In this document: piece by piece, positions 29-17,302 of the stretch
Layout of the letters: each line of letters opens with the position of its first letter
Numbering within the stretch: position 1 is the first letter of the stretch
DNA from: a virus
IMG/VR virus record: IMGVR_UViG_3300037507_001338
Location: 1 to 25,232 of that record
Reading direction: 5' to 3' (one strand)
DNA length: 25,232 nt
Translations under genes and position numbers: made by a program
The notes under the pieces: model-generated
Told to the model about the DNA's origin: nothing
The model's input: the letters and a program-made list of their open reading frames with translations, nothing else
Databases searched by the model: none

Positions 29-1126
29 TCACTCCGCAGCAAGGGGCATGATGACGCCGACATACGGCCCGCACTTGAGCAGCACCCGACTCTGCGGGTC
101 CGTGGCGTACACGTTCACCTGGGGCTCCTCGTCGCCGGGAATGTGAGCGAGGAACTGCGACACGAAACGCGGGTCCAGCTTGGTGCCGCTCGTGGAGCCG
201 GCCGCCACGATGTCGCACTGAACCCGGCTTTCGCCGTACTCGCTCGAGCGGCCCGAGATGACGACGGCATTGGCCGTCCACGCCAAATCGACGCCCTTTG
301 ACTGCTCGCTCGTGACGATGGCCGCCGACTGCACCGCAGCGAGCAAGTCGGCCACCTCGCACACCGTGGGCTCGCCGGCCACCTCGCCCACCACGTCACG
401 CCACCGGGGGAACTTCCCTTCGAGCAGTTTCGCCGTCACCGTCGCACCGTCCAGGGTGAACCGCACGTCGCTCTTGTTGGCCTCGACTTGCACGCTGCCT
501 TCGCCGTGGGCCAGCGTCGCCGCCACGAGCACGGCCCGAGCCGGCACGATGGTCTGCGAGTCGTCCACCGCCTGGTCCGTCTCCGTCTCCACGCACGAGA
601 GCCGGCGGCCGTCAGTCGCCACCCAGGTCGGATTGCCCTTCGTCACGTCGATCAGCACGCCACCGAGGGCGAACCGGCTCGACTCGGTGTCGCAGGCATA
701 CGCCGTCGCATGCACCGCACGGCGGAACTGATCCGCCGGCAGCCGGCACACAGCCTTGAGCTCGCCAGTCGTGTCGGCCGGGAACTCGGCCACGTCCTCC
801 GTCGGCAGCGTCCACGAGCCACGGCCGCACTTGACGACGATGCTCGAGCCCTTCGGCGTCAGCGTCACCTCGTCGCCCTGGGCCGCCTTGAGGATGGCCG
901 ACAACTTCAGCGCCGGCAACAGCACGGCGTCACCGTGGTAGTCGATCTCCCGGTCGATCCGCACCTCAAGGTCCGTCGCCGAGAGAAGCCCGTCACCGAG
1001 CCGCACGTTCTGCAGCACGGGGCGTGGAGCCTTCGTCGGCACCGCACGGAGCACGTCAGCCAAAGCCGTTCGCAGCGTCGCCGCGTCCAGCGTGATGCCC
1101 GCCGTCTTAGTCTTTGTCGCAGTCAT
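29..1126 (-). CDS. dnaN: DNA polymerase III beta subunit-like sliding clamp
   Basis: A 365-residue protein, the same length class as bacterial DnaN (about 366 residues). It is expected to form a dimeric ring that tethers a polymerase to DNA. Family signatures are visible: ESSRFALGGVLID at residues 148-160, WVATDGRRLS at 168-177, and a C-terminal IMPL matching the conserved end of clamps that forms part of the partner-binding cleft. The ATG at 1126 has the site AAAGGA eight bases upstream, within the leader motif shared with three other early genes. It is the last complete gene of the leftward early operon, directly after a 35-residue membrane protein whose coding region contains its ribosome-binding site. 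No polymerase is in the window, so it may recruit the host replicase or one encoded further left. The family call is firm; the role in phage replication is inferred. Confidence 0.9.
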   Translation of the reverse strand: MTATKTKTAGITLDAATLRTALADVLRAVPTKAPRPVLQNVRLGDGLLSATDLEVRIDREIDYHGDAVLLPALKLSAILKAAQGDEVTLTPKGSSIVVKCGRGSWTLPTEDVAEFPADTTGELKAVCRLPADQFRRAVHATAYACDTESSRFALGGVLIDVTKGNPTWVATDGRRLSCVETETDQAVDDSQTIVPARAVLVAATLAHGEGSVQVEANKSDVRFTLDGATVTAKLLEGKFPRWRDVVGEVAGEPTVCEVADLLAAVQSAAIVTSEQSKGVDLAWTANAVVISGRSSEYGESRVQCDIVAAGSTSGTKLDPRFVSQFLAHIPGDEEPQVNVYATDPQSRVLLKCGPYVGVIMPLAAE

Positions 1127-7242: not shown

Positions 7243-8145
7243 ATGACGCTGCGAGAGATTCTGACGAAGTATTCGATTTTGCAAAACCTCACCGACCGCA
7301 CGGTCGTGCTGTACGGCCACACGCTGGACCGGTTTGCCGAGCACCTCGGCCACGAGCCGACGCTCGACGACATCGACGACCTGGTGGTGGCTGGCTTCCT
7401 GCGGTGGCGAGCATCCACGCCCAGACGCGGCAGGAAGCCGTCTGCGGCCTCGGTGTCCAAAGACAAGAGCCAACTCACGGCTTTGGCCAACTGGGCCGCC
7501 AAGAAGCGTCTGAAGCGTTCTGACGGGCGCGACGTGGAATTCCTGTCGCTGCCACGTACCCGGAAGATCCGCCACGCCCCGCAGGCGTATACGGCAGACG
7601 AGGTGGCCAGGCTTATCCGCACGGCCCGGAACCGCATCGGGCACATTGACGGCAAACCGGCGGCCTGGTGGTGGCCGACGCTGCTCTACGCAGCGTGGTG
7701 CTCAGGAGAACGTATCGGTGCCCTGCTCGAGCTCCGCTGGCAAGACGTGGACCTCGACAACCGGACGCTGCTGTTCCGGGCTGAGACAAGGAAGGGCCGG
7801 TCAGCCGACATCCAGCGAGCGATCACGCCGGACCTGGCAGGCATGCTGCGCCGGTTCGCCGGCGAGCCGGATGCTTTGGTGTGGCGATGGGACCGAGCCC
7901 ACCATTCGCTCTGGCCCAGCCTCAAGCTGCTCTGCAAACGGGCCGGCGTTCGCGGCACGGGTTTCCACAAGATGCGGAAAGCGTCGGCCTCATACGTCGC
8001 CCTCGGCGGCGGCGATGCGACCGAGCACTTGGGGCATGCCAGCCCGGAGATGACGAGGCAGCACTACCTAGATCCCAGGATCACGAGTCCGAAGACAGCC
8101 CTGGACTACCTCCCGCCCCTGGATCTCGACGGGCCGGCGGCGTGA
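7243..8145 (+). CDS. int: Tyrosine-recombinase phage integrase
   Basis: A 300-residue site-specific recombinase, the only sizeable plus-strand gene. The N-terminal part (residues 1-95) is the SAM-like core-binding domain; the catalytic domain follows. The full active site is visible: Arg157 in SGERIGALLELRW, Lys184 in ETRKGRS, His242 and Arg245 in FHKMRKAS, His265 in LGHAS, and the nucleophile Tyr275 in QHYLDP. It lacks a long N-terminal arm-binding domain, so it is a compact integrase. A strong GGAGGT site precedes the ATG by six bases. It is divergent from the excisionase-like gene and convergent with the late operon. It should integrate the phage genome at attB and, with the excisionase, remove it. 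Confidence 0.93.
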   Translation: MTLREILTKYSILQNLTDRTVVLYGHTLDRFAEHLGHEPTLDDIDDLVVAGFLRWRASTPRRGRKPSAASVSKDKSQLTALANWAAKKRLKRSDGRDVEFLSLPRTRKIRHAPQAYTADEVARLIRTARNRIGHIDGKPAAWWWPTLLYAAWCSGERIGALLELRWQDVDLDNRTLLFRAETRKGRSADIQRAITPDLAGMLRRFAGEPDALVWRWDRAHHSLWPSLKLLCKRAGVRGTGFHKMRKASASYVALGGGDATEHLGHASPEMTRQHYLDPRITSPKTALDYLPPLDLDGPAA

Positions 8146-10007: not shown

Positions 10008-10412
10008 TCAAGTGATGCCGTACCACTTGGCGGCTTTGTTCACGGCCTGCTCGATCCGCTCCTGCTGCTTGTAGCCCCACTGGTTCAACCATTTCTGTCG
10101 GGCCGGGCAGCCGCAGGGCTTGCGCGTGATCTTTTGCACGAGCTCTTTTGTGATCCCGACGGCCGACAGCGTCCGCTCGACAGCGTCACCGAGGGCAAAC
10201 CGCTTTCGGCGTGGTGCCGGCCGAGTCGTCCTCGGCTGCGGGAATTGTTTCTCGACCGCGATGAACTGCTCGCGGGTCAGGTAATAGTGGGACTCGTCGT
10301 GGCTCGCAGCCACGGCCTTGATCGCAGCGGCGTAGCCCGGCTGGCGTTGCTCGCGGACCGCGACGGCCGTGGCTCGCAGACGGAGTAGCGTTACGGGTTG
10401 GTCGGTGGACAT
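10008..10412 (-). CDS. Hypothetical 134-aa protein with Cys-Gly-Cys motif
   Basis: A 134-residue basic protein. The middle is rich in Pro and Arg (RTTRPAPRRKRFALGDAVER), and the C terminus reads KPCGCPARQKWLNQWGYKQQ followed by an amphipathic helix. The CGCPARQ...W arrangement recurs in small phage proteins, but I cannot name a function. The CXC pair might bind metal with partners elsewhere. The ATG at 10412 has a perfect GGAGGTG site that overlaps the end of the Cys-repeat gene, suggesting translational coupling to it. Confidence 0.6.
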   Translation of the reverse strand: MSTDQPVTLLRLRATAVAVREQRQPGYAAAIKAVAASHDESHYYLTREQFIAVEKQFPQPRTTRPAPRRKRFALGDAVERTLSAVGITKELVQKITRKPCGCPARQKWLNQWGYKQQERIEQAVNKAAKWYGIT

Positions 10413-11599
10413 TCTGTTTCACCTCCGGCTTGCCAGACCTGCACAAAACCCCCGAAGTCTGCTGCACACTCGTCGGCACGAACTGGGCCGAATGAAAACG
10501 TCAAATCGCCGTCTGTATACTCACAACAGATTTCCAGCGTGCATGGATTCGGATCGCAGTCCACGCCCTCCAGCCATGCACCGGCACAGTCCGCCTCGGT
10601 CGTCTCCGTGCAGTTGCCGTCCTGGCAGCAGGCTCCCGTCGGCGGCTGCGGGCACGGGTTCGGGTCGCACTCGACGCCCTCGCTCCACAGGCCGGAGCAG
10701 TCCGCCTCGATCGTCTGCGTGCAGTTGCCCTCGCCGTCGCAGCACGCACCCTCGGGCGGCTGCGGGCATGGGTTGGGATCACACTCGCCGCCGGCCGTCC
10801 ATGTGCCGGCGCACTGCTCTTCTAGCGTGTAGGTGCAATTCCCCGTTGCAGCATCGCAGCAGGTGCCGCCGCAGGTCACGTCCTCGCAGAGCGTGTCCAC
10901 GCCCTGCCAGTCTCCAGGGCAGGCACCCTCGGCGACGTTGTCCGAACAGATGACGCCCTGGCCGCCTTCCTCGCAGCATGCGCCGCACTCGCACGGGTCG
11001 ATCTGCATAGACAAGGTAAGCCCGAGCCCGTTGAGCCAGTCAAGCACGTCCTGCGCGTTCGTCTCAAGCTCGTAGCCGATCGGGCCCCCGTCCACAAACG
11101 CCCAGTCGGCGTTTGGGGAAAATGTAATTGCCGAGCCGTCGTCCGAGCATCCGTTGAGCGATTTGTCGGCCGTGAGCGACCGGCCATACAACAAGAAGCC
11201 GTCGTTGTCGAAACCAAACTCCGCCCGGAAACCGATAACGTACAGGCAGGATTCGCATCCGCAACTGTCGCCCAGCCTGGGAACGTCAGAAATAAGCGCG
11301 GACAGCTTCGCGTCAATCCATTCGCCGGACGTGTTCGGCAGCTCGGGAAGTTCCGGAATGTCTTCCAGCGGAATTACTATTCCGGTGTTTTCATAATCGT
11401 CGGAATTCAGGGCGAGCGTTTGTGGCGCATACCCACCCAGAGTCACGGTCCAGTCCACGCCAGACGTCGGGCACTCGTTGCCATTGTTGGCAAGGTGCGT
11501 GCATCGACTGCACGCCGGGCAGCAGCAACACGCCTGCTCCGCGCCTAACTTGCCGTCGCGCACAACGAGTTTACCGTCCTGTATCGTCAGTGGACTCAT
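10391..11599 (-). CDS. Cys-rich repeat virion protein, probable tail-tip or appendage protein
   Basis: A 402-residue acidic protein with about 40 cysteines. It starts MSPLTIQDGKLVVRDGKLGA, then EQACCCCPACSRC, a metal- or disulfide-prone knot near residues 24-33. Residues about 50-200 look globular. Residues 206-353 hold four tandem Cys-rich units; the last three share a GNC...C...W...G...CDPNPC pattern. The last gene of the tail module is the usual place for receptor-binding or decoration proteins, so a surface appendage is likely. The start at 11599 (ATGA overlap) is chosen over a longer frame. Similar Cys repeats occur in secreted planctomycete proteins, so the repeats may have a host origin; that is inference. 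Confidence 0.65.
   Translation of the reverse strand: MSPLTIQDGKLVVRDGKLGAEQACCCCPACSRCTHLANNGNECPTSGVDWTVTLGGYAPQTLALNSDDYENTGIVIPLEDIPELPELPNTSGEWIDAKLSALISDVPRLGDSCGCESCLYVIGFRAEFGFDNDGFLLYGRSLTADKSLNGCSDDGSAITFSPNADWAFVDGGPIGYELETNAQDVLDWLNGLGLTLSMQIDPCECGACCEEGGQGVICSDNVAEGACPGDWQGVDTLCEDVTCGGTCCDAATGNCTYTLEEQCAGTWTAGGECDPNPCPQPPEGACCDGEGNCTQTIEADCSGLWSEGVECDPNPCPQPPTGACCQDGNCTETTEADCAGAWLEGVDCDPNPCTLEICCEYTDGDLTFSFGPVRADECAADFGGFVQVWQAGGETECPPTNP
10541..10984 (-). repeat. Four tandem Cys-rich coding repeats
   Basis: Within the 402-residue protein, units of about 33-40 residues start at GACC (residue 206), GGTCC (244), GACC (284) and GACC (322). The last three end in CDPNPC, and two carry CPQPP spacers. 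The DNA copies are recognisably similar, so unit number could change by recombination. Confidence 0.75.
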
Positions 11600-12213
11600 G
11601 ACGCCGTTGCCGTCGCGCAAGTCGTGATAGTGAGTTGCACAGTGGATGCAGTGTCGTCGCACAGCACGCCGACTCGCCGGCGAGTAAATTCAACAGCCTC
11701 CGTTGTCAGCGTGGCCATCGTAAAGACTTCCACGGTCTGCACCTGCATTGTGAAAGTGCTGGTCGATTGGGTTGCCAGCGCAATACCCGGCAATGTCTTG
11801 AATTGAATGCCGCATTGCGTCGTCGTGGCCGCCGTAAAGAAATCGCCACGGAACAACTGCGGCACCAAAAGGAACCACGCCGTGCCGTCCTTTCCAATTG
11901 AGCAGTCACGCTCGCTCGAGTCGTTCTCATCAAGCGGCCAAAATAGATTGGTGGCGCTGACGGTGTTGGGCGTGGTGGTTTGATACTTGAACGTGACGGT
12001 GTTTGACGAGCCGATCGACCACGAACCCGTGAAGGTGCAGATGCGGATTTGCTTGTCGGTCTTGCCGGTTTGCCGCACCCCAAAGTGAAGCCCGGCCCCG
12101 TCCCGGTCGCCAGCCTCGACGATCCGCACCACCTTGGCGATACGGTCAGCCGCCGGCCGCGTGAACGTGACACGCTCCGTTCGTGCGGCCTTGCCGTCTG
12201 GCCTCTTTGCCAC
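11596..12213 (-). CDS. Virion-associated protein of unknown function (distal tail region)
   Basis: About 205 residues starting at GTG (12213) with GAGGA upstream; the longer frame beyond it runs over the preceding gene and has non-protein composition. The first part (VAKRPDGKAARTERVTFTRP) is basic. The remainder is beta-rich with repeated Thr/Ser strands (FTGSWSIGSSNTVTFKYQTT) and a FWPLDENDSSERDCSIG segment, in the style of tail or baseplate proteins. It lies between two other beta-rich proteins downstream of the tape measure gene. The ATGA overlap with the Cys-repeat gene indicates coupling. Confidence 0.6.
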   Translation of the reverse strand: MAKRPDGKAARTERVTFTRPAADRIAKVVRIVEAGDRDGAGLHFGVRQTGKTDKQIRICTFTGSWSIGSSNTVTFKYQTTTPNTVSATNLFWPLDENDSSERDCSIGKDGTAWFLLVPQLFRGDFFTAATTTQCGIQFKTLPGIALATQSTSTFTMQVQTVEVFTMATLTTEAVEFTRRRVGVLCDDTASTVQLTITTCATATAS

Positions 12214-13481: not shown

Positions 13482-14819
13482 CTAGTTGAGAATGTCCACG
13501 GTGCCAATCTGTCCATTGCGGTTGATTTGCTGCAGTTGACGAACCGTTTCTGTTTCGGCGGCGTTCGGCTCAGTCTTCGTAGCGCTGTCTTTCAGTCGCG
13601 TCTCAAGTGACTTTGATGCCGTGTCGATTGCAGCATTAAAATTAGCCTGAAATTTGTTGAGCACGCCTTGCGATGCCTGGGCTGACACCTGGGCCTCAAG
13701 CTCGGCAATCCGGGCCAACTGTTCTGGCGTGAGCCCTTGCGCCCGTGTTTGTGGCAGACCGACGCCACCCATGCCACCCGAGCCAACAACTCCACCTGTT
13801 GCCGCCCTGGCTTGAGTTTCCCTTAGGGCCTGCAGCTCTTTCTCTGCCTCACTGCGAATGTCGATTCCAAGAATAGGCGCAAACTTTTTGATGAATTGCT
13901 CAATGAACGACGCCAAATTGAAAAACGCATTGCCGGCCAGCTGAATAAAATCCAAAAGGCCAGAAGCAATGTTTTGCGCGATTTGTTGCGGGCCGGCGGC
14001 TTGCACGAGTCCAAGCAAATCGTTGGCAATCTGTGCTATTGGCCCGGCTAGCTCCCCGACAATTTGTCCTGTCAACGCTTTGATAGTTGCGAACACTTTG
14101 TCAAATGCGTCATTCATGTTGCCGATTGATTTGATTGCGTCTTCGCTAACTACGAGTCCAAGTTTTTCCGCTTCCTCGCGCATTTTTGTTAGCGCTCCGG
14201 GCCCTTCCGAAAACAATGGCCCCAGTTCGATGCCGCCTTTACCAAACACAGAAACGGCGGCAGCGGCACGCTCAGCCGGATCAGTAATTTTGGAAATAGC
14301 ATCAGCAACAGCCTCGAACTGTTCCGTGGGGGTTTTTTGAATTAGGTCATCAAAGACAAGGCCTAGTTTCGTAAAACTTTCCTGCGCTTTTTCGTCCACT
14401 CTGGCACTGCCTAAGTTAATTGTCAGTTTTTGAATTGATTTAGCAAAGGTTTCTAGTTCCGTTCCGGCCAGCTTTGCAGCAAACCCGTAGGCCTGCAACG
14501 CTTCGACGTTGACTCCTGTTCGTTGCGACACGTCGAATAGTTGGTCCAATTGATCGGCAACGCTTTTGCCAAACTCGGCCAAAGAGACAACGGTGCCAGT
14601 TACGGCCTTACCAAGACTTAGAAACGCAGTCGTCGCCGCTTGAAGTCCGCCTAACGCAAGTTTGCCGATCTCAATGTTCTTAAGAGTGCTTAAATCGCTG
14701 GACGCTTTTTTGCCAGCGTCTCCAAGCGAGTCCAGCCGCTTGTTCACGTCGGCTAGAGCAGTAGCCAATTGGGCCGTGTTCGCGCTGATCTGCATGGCGA
14801 GGCCAAGTGCCGTGCTCAT
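13482..14819 (-). CDS. Tail tape measure protein
   Basis: A 445-residue protein, long and helical with few aromatic residues, starting MSTALGLAMQISANTAQLAT, then LADVNKRLDSLGDAGKKASS, a standard tape-measure opening. The middle has LTGVNVEALQ-type segments (DVSQRTGVNVEALQAYGFAA) and AERAAAAVSVFGKGGIELGP, both frequent in tape measure proteins. Hydrophobic stretches occur at about residues 285-320, followed by a C-terminal coiled coil (LTPEQLARIAELEAQVSAQA). It sets tail length; at 445 residues it predicts a short tail. The base composition is more AT-rich than its neighbours. It follows the chaperone T frame by one base, with AAGGG as ribosome-binding site. Confidence 0.85.
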   Translation of the reverse strand: MSTALGLAMQISANTAQLATALADVNKRLDSLGDAGKKASSDLSTLKNIEIGKLALGGLQAATTAFLSLGKAVTGTVVSLAEFGKSVADQLDQLFDVSQRTGVNVEALQAYGFAAKLAGTELETFAKSIQKLTINLGSARVDEKAQESFTKLGLVFDDLIQKTPTEQFEAVADAISKITDPAERAAAAVSVFGKGGIELGPLFSEGPGALTKMREEAEKLGLVVSEDAIKSIGNMNDAFDKVFATIKALTGQIVGELAGPIAQIANDLLGLVQAAGPQQIAQNIASGLLDFIQLAGNAFFNLASFIEQFIKKFAPILGIDIRSEAEKELQALRETQARAATGGVVGSGGMGGVGLPQTRAQGLTPEQLARIAELEAQVSAQASQGVLNKFQANFNAAIDTASKSLETRLKDSATKTEPNAAETETVRQLQQINRNGQIGTVDILN

Positions 14820-14820
14820 A

Positions 14821-15481
14821 TCATGTGCCCTTCAAATCTCGCGTCATTTGTTCCAGAACTGACTGCATTTGCAATTTGTGTTGCGGCGGCTTTTCCACTG
14901 GAATGAACTCGTTTGGCGACGGGCAACGACCACGCCTTGTGTGAGGCGCTAGCGCAACGCTGGCTAGGATTCCAGTCTGTGCCCAGCTGTTGTCGAGCGG
15001 CTGGAAATACCGTGCAAACGCTAGCCATTCGCTTAGCTCTCTGCTGTCCATTCGCTGCTCAAGCTCGCCTACAGTCATGCGGAGATGACTGGCCAGCATG
15101 AACAGGAATCGCCGAGACGGTCGCAGGCTAAAGCTCGCCGGCTAGTTCGACTACGTCCGCCTCCGTGATTTTGTTGTGCTTCTGGGCCACATCGAAAAGC
15201 TCGCCCATGACTGCCCCGTCGAGCTCGGCCACTTCGCTCATCTCGCTGTCGGTCCAGATCCGCACACCATGCTCGTCGCACAGCGTTCGCACCAGGTAGA
15301 AGGCCCGGAAGTTGTGAAACTTCTCCATGCCCTTGTTGCGAATGTCGATCCAGGAAAGCTCCCAATCATCCCGCTCGCCGACGCTCATTACGCGAACGTA
15401 CACATCAAGATTCCAATCCTTGACGTGAACCTTGAGCGGCTTGCGAACGTTGGCTGACTTAATTTGTTCTTTCAGTCCCAT
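14821..15481 (-). CDS. Tail assembly chaperone GT fusion made by +1 frameshift
   Basis: The downstream chaperone frame (T) has no good start of its own: its homologous block begins before the first ATG, reading SLRPSRRFLFMLASHLRMTV, then ELEQRMDSRELSEWLAFARY. This frame joins the G frame by a +1 shift at CTT TAG C (15133-15127), skipping base 15130, giving a 219-residue product (117 + 102). Phage tail chaperones are classically made as G and a minor G-T fusion; the T part recruits the tape measure protein and the G part the tail tube protein. Most known cases use a -1 shift; +1 cases exist. A T-only product from the ATG at 15099 is the alternative. Confidence 0.7.
15127..15133 (-). promoter_or_regulatory. 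Programmed +1 frameshift site CTT TAG C
   Basis: At the end of the G frame the codons are GGC GAG CTT TAG C. The peptidyl tRNA on CTT can slip to TTT, after which AGC CTG continues in the T frame. This is the layout of the prfB autoregulatory site (CTT TGA C) with TAG instead of TGA. A purine-rich GGCGAG directly upstream may act like the internal Shine-Dalgarno stimulator, but it is nearer and weaker than in prfB. Confidence 0.65.
15128..15481 (-). CDS. Tail assembly chaperone G protein
   Basis: A 117-residue protein starting MGLKEQIKSANVRKPLKVHV, with a beta-rich N terminus (KDWNLDVYVRVMSVGERDDW) and an acidic helical C terminus (GELFDVAQKHNKITEADVVE), the pattern of short tail chaperones between the tail tube and tape measure genes. 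It ends at the frameshift site CTT TAG C. It should bind the tail tube protein and, with the fused form, assemble it around the tape measure. The ribosome-binding site before the ATG is weak (TTGGAC). Confidence 0.8.
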   Translation of the reverse strand: MGLKEQIKSANVRKPLKVHVKDWNLDVYVRVMSVGERDDWELSWIDIRNKGMEKFHNFRAFYLVRTLCDEHGVRIWTDSEMSEVAELDGAVMGELFDVAQKHNKITEADVVELAGEL

Positions 15482-16202: not shown

Positions 16203-16619
16203 TCAGCTCTCCTGCCACCACACGTCGTAGGTCTGCGTCACCTGGTACACCGGCGGGAGGTCGGCCCCAGCCAGCGTCACGAAGTCGTCAGACTCGTTTT
16301 CCAGGCTCGTCTGGTTGACCGTTGTATTGTCCACGGTTCCGCCGTAGCCATCCAGAATCACCCGCATCCGGTCGGCCACGTCCCGGGCTTGTTCGTAGGT
16401 CGTACCGTAGATGCCGTACTCGACTGTCACCCGTGGCATCCCGGCCGGACGCCCGAGAGTCTGGGCACGCTCGATGCCCGTTCGACGCCAGGTTACGAAC
16501 GGCAGCGTGGCTGTCGCCGGGGCCAGCACCGGGTAGATCCGCAGGCCCACGAGGGTGGTGACGTTGGTGCTGCCGACGAGGGCGGTACGCAGAACGGCTT
16601 CGGGGGATTTGAGAGGCAT
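16203..16619 (-). CDS. Tail completion protein, DUF3168-like
   Basis: A 138-residue protein from ATG 16619 (with GGAGG upstream and a TGATG overlap with the upstream stop; a GTG one codon earlier is possible). It shows SPEAVLRTALVGSTNVTTLV and GLRIYPVLAP, PFVTWRRTG and a repeated RVTVEYGIYGTTYEQARDVA segment, matching the DUF3168 tail completion proteins that close the tail end contacting the head. It ends in VTQTYDVWW, as in this family. Confidence 0.75.
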   Translation of the reverse strand: MPLKSPEAVLRTALVGSTNVTTLVGLRIYPVLAPATATLPFVTWRRTGIERAQTLGRPAGMPRVTVEYGIYGTTYEQARDVADRMRVILDGYGGTVDNTTVNQTSLENESDDFVTLAGADLPPVYQVTQTYDVWWQES

Positions 16620-17302
16620 CACTTCCTCCCCTTACCAAACGGGCTGGCCATCTCTTTCAAAGCGTTGTTCAGAGATACGGTCATTTGCTTAGCCAGGACT
16701 GATTTCATGGCTGGCAGGCTGCGTTCGTACGCCGTCCGCACGGGAGGAACGCCGCCCTTGCCGCCAATCGGAAAGCTGCCCAGGTCAACGGTGTCGCCGT
16801 CGCCCTTGCGAACCACTCGGATAAATCCCTTGGGCGGCTTTGGGTTGCTGACGACTTTGCCAGACCGGCCCGACACAATCGCTTTGATTTTGCCGGTTCT
16901 CTTGAAGCTCGATGCAATGTTTGATTTTGTGCGACGCTGCTTGGTGCCAAACTCAAGAAATCCGCCGTGCGAGCCCTTTTGATTTTTGCCCAAATCTTCT
17001 GACCGCTTGCGTGGCGGCGCGACGTAGCCAGCCAGTGCAACCGCAGCGCCGGGGCTTTTGGCTGGGTTGCGTGATTTAGGGCTGCCCGTGTACCGCTTTA
17101 CCTTTTTGGCGATTGCCCTTTTTAGGTTGCCGGTCGGGCCGCGCGGCGTAAGTGTCTTGAGCAACCGAAACGCCGGCTCGATTGTTTTGTTTAGCGCCGC
17201 ACCCATGTGCTTGGCTGCGATGTTGCGGGGCAGCAGTTCGTACGCCTGCTTGAGCTGCTTTAGCTCCGGGAACTCCACGCTGATGTCGATGCCTCCTGCC
17301 AT
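16619..17302 (-). CDS. HK97 gp10-like tail/morphogenesis protein
   Basis: A 227-residue, very basic protein starting MAGGIDISVEFPELKQLKQA, then YELLPRNIAAKHMGAALNKT and a central GGFLEFGTKQRR motif that is the classic gp10 signature (a FxEFGT-type phrase). The start at 17302 (TGATG overlap with the head-closure stop) is chosen; the longer frame upstream reads through other genes. It acts in head-to-tail joining, next to the closure and tail completion genes. Confidence 0.8.
   Translation of the reverse strand: MAGGIDISVEFPELKQLKQAYELLPRNIAAKHMGAALNKTIEPAFRLLKTLTPRGPTGNLKRAIAKKVKRYTGSPKSRNPAKSPGAAVALAGYVAPPRKRSEDLGKNQKGSHGGFLEFGTKQRRTKSNIASSFKRTGKIKAIVSGRSGKVVSNPKPPKGFIRVVRKGDGDTVDLGSFPIGGKGGVPPVRTAYERSLPAMKSVLAKQMTVSLNNALKEMASPFGKGRK

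Follow-up and report, generated by a model that had tools for sequence, protein, structure and literature searches.

Frameshifting in the tail assembly chaperone genes of phages has long been known. In phage lambda, the chaperone is made from G and T domains encoded just before the tape measure gene, the T domain being made only as an extension of gpG to give gpGT, and in lambda and most other described cases the ribosome reaches the T frame by a −1 shift (PMC5009743). Shifts in the +1 direction at a stop codon are best represented by bacterial prfB (CUU UGA C), where UGA and a Shine-Dalgarno sequence just upstream serve the autoregulation of release factor 2 (RF2) (PMC5009743, PMC3711429); all CUU-stop sites in the RECODE set are those of prfB (PMC10885494). 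The release-factor genes of two giant viruses of amoebae, Mimivirus R726 and Megavirus mg280, carry CUU UAG C and CUU UAA C, and the Mimivirus CUU UAG C site has been shown by mass spectrometry to shift +1 in Escherichia coli (PMC3521657). Phage SPP1 uses a stop-dependent +1 shift at CCC UAA to make its major tail protein gp17.1*, although its own chaperone relies on a −1 shift (PMC6316719), and the archaeal virus HSTV-2 has been proposed to use a +1 shift in its tail chaperone (PMC5009743). Here, a G/T tail chaperone pair is described in a viral DNA window of 25,232 nucleotides (the whole stretch analyzed, positions 1 to 25,232 of IMG/VR virus record IMGVR_UViG_3300037507_001338) that shares with lambda its position and its G and T domains but for which programmed +1 slippage at a CTT-stop site is predicted to yield a 219-residue GT fusion, a reading to which we assign a probability of roughly 0.9.

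The G frame (15481-15128, minus strand) encodes 117 residues matching PHROG 344, "tail assembly chaperone" (E 5.5e-23), and ends GCC GGC GAG CTT TAG C. After a +1 shift, the T frame (AGC CTG CGA ... TGA; 14821-15129, minus) encodes 102 residues matching PHROG 337, "tail protein" (E 6e-14), with a match to Pfam Phage_tail_T (E 3.1e-5) whose 24.8 bits fall slightly under the cut-off of 25.9. As the first-pass annotation had noted in proposing this frameshift, the T frame lies exactly +1 relative to G and opens just before the end of G. Because in-frame TAG codons stand at 15153-15151 and 15144-15142 (both minus), it is open only from 15141, 11 nt before the G stop; the nearer of these stops bounds the region in which a shift can happen, while the farther one overlaps a GTA codon that is invariant (68/68) in the main set of +1 relatives. 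The shift site itself, CTT TAG C, occupies 15127-15133 (minus), with CTT at 15133-15131 and TAG at 15130-15128. Reading CTT, skipping T15130, and continuing with AGC gives the fusion of the length foreseen, ...VELAGEL|SLRPSRRFLFMLASHL...

Whether such a site is a property of one sequence or of a lineage was addressed by searching public collections for relatives, both by homology and with three pattern scans, with junction calling anchored on homology to G and T. Removal of identical 500-nt junctions left 131 distinct G/T junctions among the IMG/VR loci, in which T is in the +1 phase in 69 and in the −1 phase in 62. All 69 distinct +1 junctions carry CTT TAR, so that the CTT codon, the stop, and the +1 phase proposed for the window are conserved throughout. 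Their stops are TAG in 37 cases and TAA in 32, never TGA; the next base is C in 68 of the 69 (T in L258), and the T frame opens either 11 or 20 nt ahead of the G stop in every one. When matches to an extended motif were read back in their loci, 106 of 107 had the T domain after CTT TAR, and a contig end cuts the remaining one. The hexamer CTTTAR is not in itself rare in the window (6 observed against 5.2 expected from shuffling); it is its position, phase, and conservation that exceed chance. Neither of the other familiar arrangements fits these junctions, as T in the +1 phase in all 69 is incompatible with a −1 slippery heptamer of the form XXXYYYZ, and CTT, rather than the CCC of SPP1, precedes the stop in all of them. 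Scans for CTT-stop patterns beside other T domains (F.F[RK]LA..H and F.FALA..H) recovered L227 as their only find, further matches having failed the frame test or lacked a tail-protein T domain.

The same conservation bears on the possibility that the frame change is only apparent, created by transcriptional slippage or by error in the data. The site does contain a TTT run, but three bases are too short a run for polymerase slippage, and the same state recurs in 69 distinct sequences from many samples. Agreement among over 100 contigs from many metagenomes excludes a slip of sequencing or assembly, and we give this explanation as a whole practically no weight.

The homologues that shift in the −1 direction provide the natural comparison. 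These include IMG/VR loci L271-L337 as well as Streptomyces phages Dubu and phiSASD1, Rhodococcus phage REQ1, and Moraxella Mcat phages, all with homologous G and T but with T in the −1 frame and sites of the A AAA AAC, G GGA AAA, or G GGA AAC type. In the IMG/VR set, A-run sites (GCA AAA AAC, GGA AAA GGC, GGG AAA ACC, G GGA AAC) are found in 60 of the 62 −1 junctions, the other two being L348 and L349 with GCG GGG GAA TGA, and TGA, common here, is the stop in 33 of the 62. The −1 phase likewise characterizes the 14 named-phage loci examined, from phages of Streptomyces, Rhodococcus, Moraxella, Psychrobacter, Acinetobacter, and Thermobifida.

Evidence that translation enters T from G comes from selection on the T frame. 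Past the junction, the first eight codons show a ratio of non-synonymous to synonymous change of 0.09 when read in the T frame but of 4.7 and 4.2 in the other two, so that T is read, and held under purifying selection, from the junction onward. From the T-frame stop to the FLF motif, 49 of the 69 +1 junctions contain no ATG, GTG, or TTG at all, and no such codon is conserved; in the other 20 the codon is mostly FLF's own leucine codon. Selection that starts at the junction, together with the lack of a conserved start codon, implies that ribosomes must arrive from G. These results bear on the principal alternative, termination-reinitiation, in which T would be made separately after the G stop, from an ATG at 15099 or a non-standard start, without any fusion. 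That ATG (15097-15099, minus), the first in the T frame, follows the G stop by 28 nt and encodes the conserved M of FLFMLA in the 68 main +1 sequences, and the T open reading frame of −1-phase L348 and L349 begins at an ATG that overlaps the G stop (GAATGA), as reinitiation would have it. The conserved domain (RPSRRFLF), however, starts upstream of the ATG at 15099 and is under strong T-frame selection, and the +1 member L227 has CGG (R) in place of that ATG. Nor would reinitiation need an invariant CTT, and we consider it very unlikely. As had been suggested for the window, the T domain reaches further upstream than any conserved T start, the first ATG being internal to it.

The codon at which slippage is expected is itself unusually constrained. 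The last leucine codon of G is CTT in 68/68 of the main +1 set, whereas nine other leucine sites use several codons; CTT accounts for 13% of leucine codons in the window's genes. The codons before it vary in the +1 set, with GAG replaced by GAA or AAT and GGC by GGG or GGT, which points to slippage at CTT|T. A −2 shift would bring ribosomes into the same frame as a +1 shift, so that phase alone cannot separate the two (PMC10885494). Within the short interval open to a shift, however, a −2 move would place the tRNA from CTT on AGC (ATC in L069), to which it has no complementarity, whereas a move onto TTT preserves pairing, with a single G:U pair. The variation of GAG and GGC beside an unvarying CTT (other codons for a −2 shift being judged by eye) also speaks against a −2 shift, which we regard as even less probable than reinitiation.

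Programmed +1 slippage thus remains the preferred reading, and the sequence supports it through an invariant CTT TAR in the +1 phase, T-frame selection from the junction on, a T without any conserved start, and a frozen 5' stretch that goes with the +1 sites. In the mechanism envisaged, most ribosomes would stop at the G stop codon to give gpG of 117 residues, while a minority would stall there, the P site holding CUU decoded by peptidyl-tRNA-Leu and the A site holding the stop codon. While termination is slow, this tRNA-Leu would slip +1 in the P site from CUU to UUU, much as happens at prfB; AGC or AAC would then enter the A site, and the 219-residue GT would follow. Earlier experiments favor this chemistry: among 32 shift codons placed before UAG, CUU-U performed best (PMC5009743), and the Mimivirus site shifts +1 in E. 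coli (PMC3521657). Ribosomal slippage, and its low efficiency, are what we infer from this arrangement. By analogy with lambda gpGT, the fusion would link the tape measure to the tail tube.

The 5' stretch comprises the last 15 codons of G (15131-15175, minus; about 45 nt) and stands out by the conservation of its synonymous sites. Its family form is AAC AAR CTY ACG GAG GCG GAY GTA GTY GAA CTN GCC GGN GAR CTT, with ATC in the window in place of CTY, and the frozen part runs from its ACG codon to CTT. Mean synonymous entropy is 0.27 bits in these codons versus 0.94 in the rest of G, a difference reached in 1/100000 permutations, which ignore shared ancestry, and all five of the single-codon sites of 4-fold or higher degeneracy fall within the element. 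L227, at about 57% protein identity, retains nearly all of it; L348 and L349 do not. The stretch is a candidate stimulator of the shift.

The predicted IMG/VR fusion proteins align across the junction without a gap (ELAKKL-N.RP.RRFLF in −1 members and ELAGEL-SARPSRRFLF in +1 members), so that the direction of the predicted shift changed while the protein was kept. A tree built from 51 fusion proteins separates the 19 main +1 rows from all others by a branch with support 98/93 and pairs L227 (+1) with L348 (−1 phase) at 100/99; the remaining rows are −1, leaving the +1 group nested inside −1 lineages. A constraint forcing every +1 row into one group was rejected (p-AU 0.003), so the phase label must have changed at least two times. 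A single gain of +1 followed by its loss in the L348/L349 lineage would suit the shared 5' element better than two gains. In these two loci (L348:2501-3042 and L349:2277-2818), T is in the −1 phase at GCG GGG GAA TGA ACG; T could begin there at the ATG overlapping the G stop, and frameshifting may have been lost.

Several observations weigh against programmed +1 slippage. The −1-phase loci L348 and L349 are, in the tree, the closest to +1 member L227, so that the +1 arrangement is not universal even within its clade. No conserved RNA structure was found 5' or 3' of the site, nor a Shine-Dalgarno sequence at the prfB spacing of about 3 nt before CUU, where only GGNGAG or GGGAAT adjoins CTT; the best match to the anti-Shine-Dalgarno sequence (GGAGG) is 26 nt upstream of CTT. 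The likeness to prfB drawn in the first-pass annotation thus extends to the CUU shift codon, the C after the stop, and the +1 phase, but not to UGA, replaced here by UAG or UAA, nor to an adjacent Shine-Dalgarno sequence, and a structural ratio would take the place of RF2 control. Closer in sequence are the Mimivirus and Megavirus sites, identical to those seen here although in a release-factor gene, whereas SPP1 shares a stop-dependent +1 shift in a phage tail gene but differs in the gene and the shift codon. It had also been proposed that the TAG stop would place the site under release factor 1 (RF1) rather than RF2. TGA is indeed never used, but regulation by RF1 only is rejected as a conserved property because 32/69 junctions use TAA, which both factors read. 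The absence of TGA at +1 sites may reflect RF2, or merely the D that TGA-C would insert in T. In the window, 26 of the 32 open reading frames taken as genes end in TGA.

A more specific scenario can be offered tentatively, as one we hold to be somewhat doubtful. A −1 slippery site may have been replaced by a +1 CTT-stop site together with a new RNA stimulator, a linear 5' element of about 45 nt that is neither a prfB-spaced Shine-Dalgarno sequence nor a hairpin, with the gpG to gpGT ratio set by the speed of host termination at UAG or UAA. A change of shift direction among homologous tail chaperones contrasts with a survey of prokaryotic frame transitions in which direction was conserved among orthologs (PMC3711429). 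Neither a CTT-stop site in a tail chaperone nor a traced switch of direction among homologues was found in the literature searched, many subscription papers being outside its coverage. Because close −1 and +1 relatives can be compared, reversal of a programmed shift becomes testable, as does whether the gpG to gpGT ratio tracks release-factor supply, and annotators may wish to check tail chaperones for +1 joins at CTT-stop sites.

The surroundings of the pair fit its assignment. The tape measure protein gene (13482-14819, minus; PHROG matches with E down to 1.2e-26) lies directly downstream of T, and a gp17-like tail terminator (16203-16622, minus; Pfam Tail_completion_gp17, E 8.9e-8) lies upstream in the same gene row, so that G and T sit between terminator and tape measure genes in the gpG/gpGT position. 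By gene order and protein families, the pair is the G/GT tail assembly chaperone of a tailed phage, one of a family of uncultured phages. The tape measure is short (445 residues), which suggests a short tail. In a search of GTDB genomes for a host, a first alignment gave no match and a second gave only distant tail-chaperone relatives, of which four (L425, L426, L427, and L428) show G in the −1 phase and one (L429) no clear pair; Planctomycetota genomes contained, besides distant capsid matches, a single clear −1 chaperone relative, L441.

Elsewhere, the window encodes a 423-residue protein with cysteine-rich repeats like GACCQDGNCTETTEADC (10391-11662, minus) that has no Pfam match, and no tRNA genes were found in it. 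The phage is probably temperate; a tyrosine integrase is encoded at 7243-8145 (plus; Pfam Phage_integrase, 5.3e-10). An 81-residue protein (1462-1707, minus) is almost nothing but a LexA DNA-binding domain (Pfam 9.8e-23), the protease portion of LexA being absent, and a phage-encoded DNA polymerase III beta clamp is found at 29-1126 (minus; Pfam DNA_pol3_beta_2, 1e-18).
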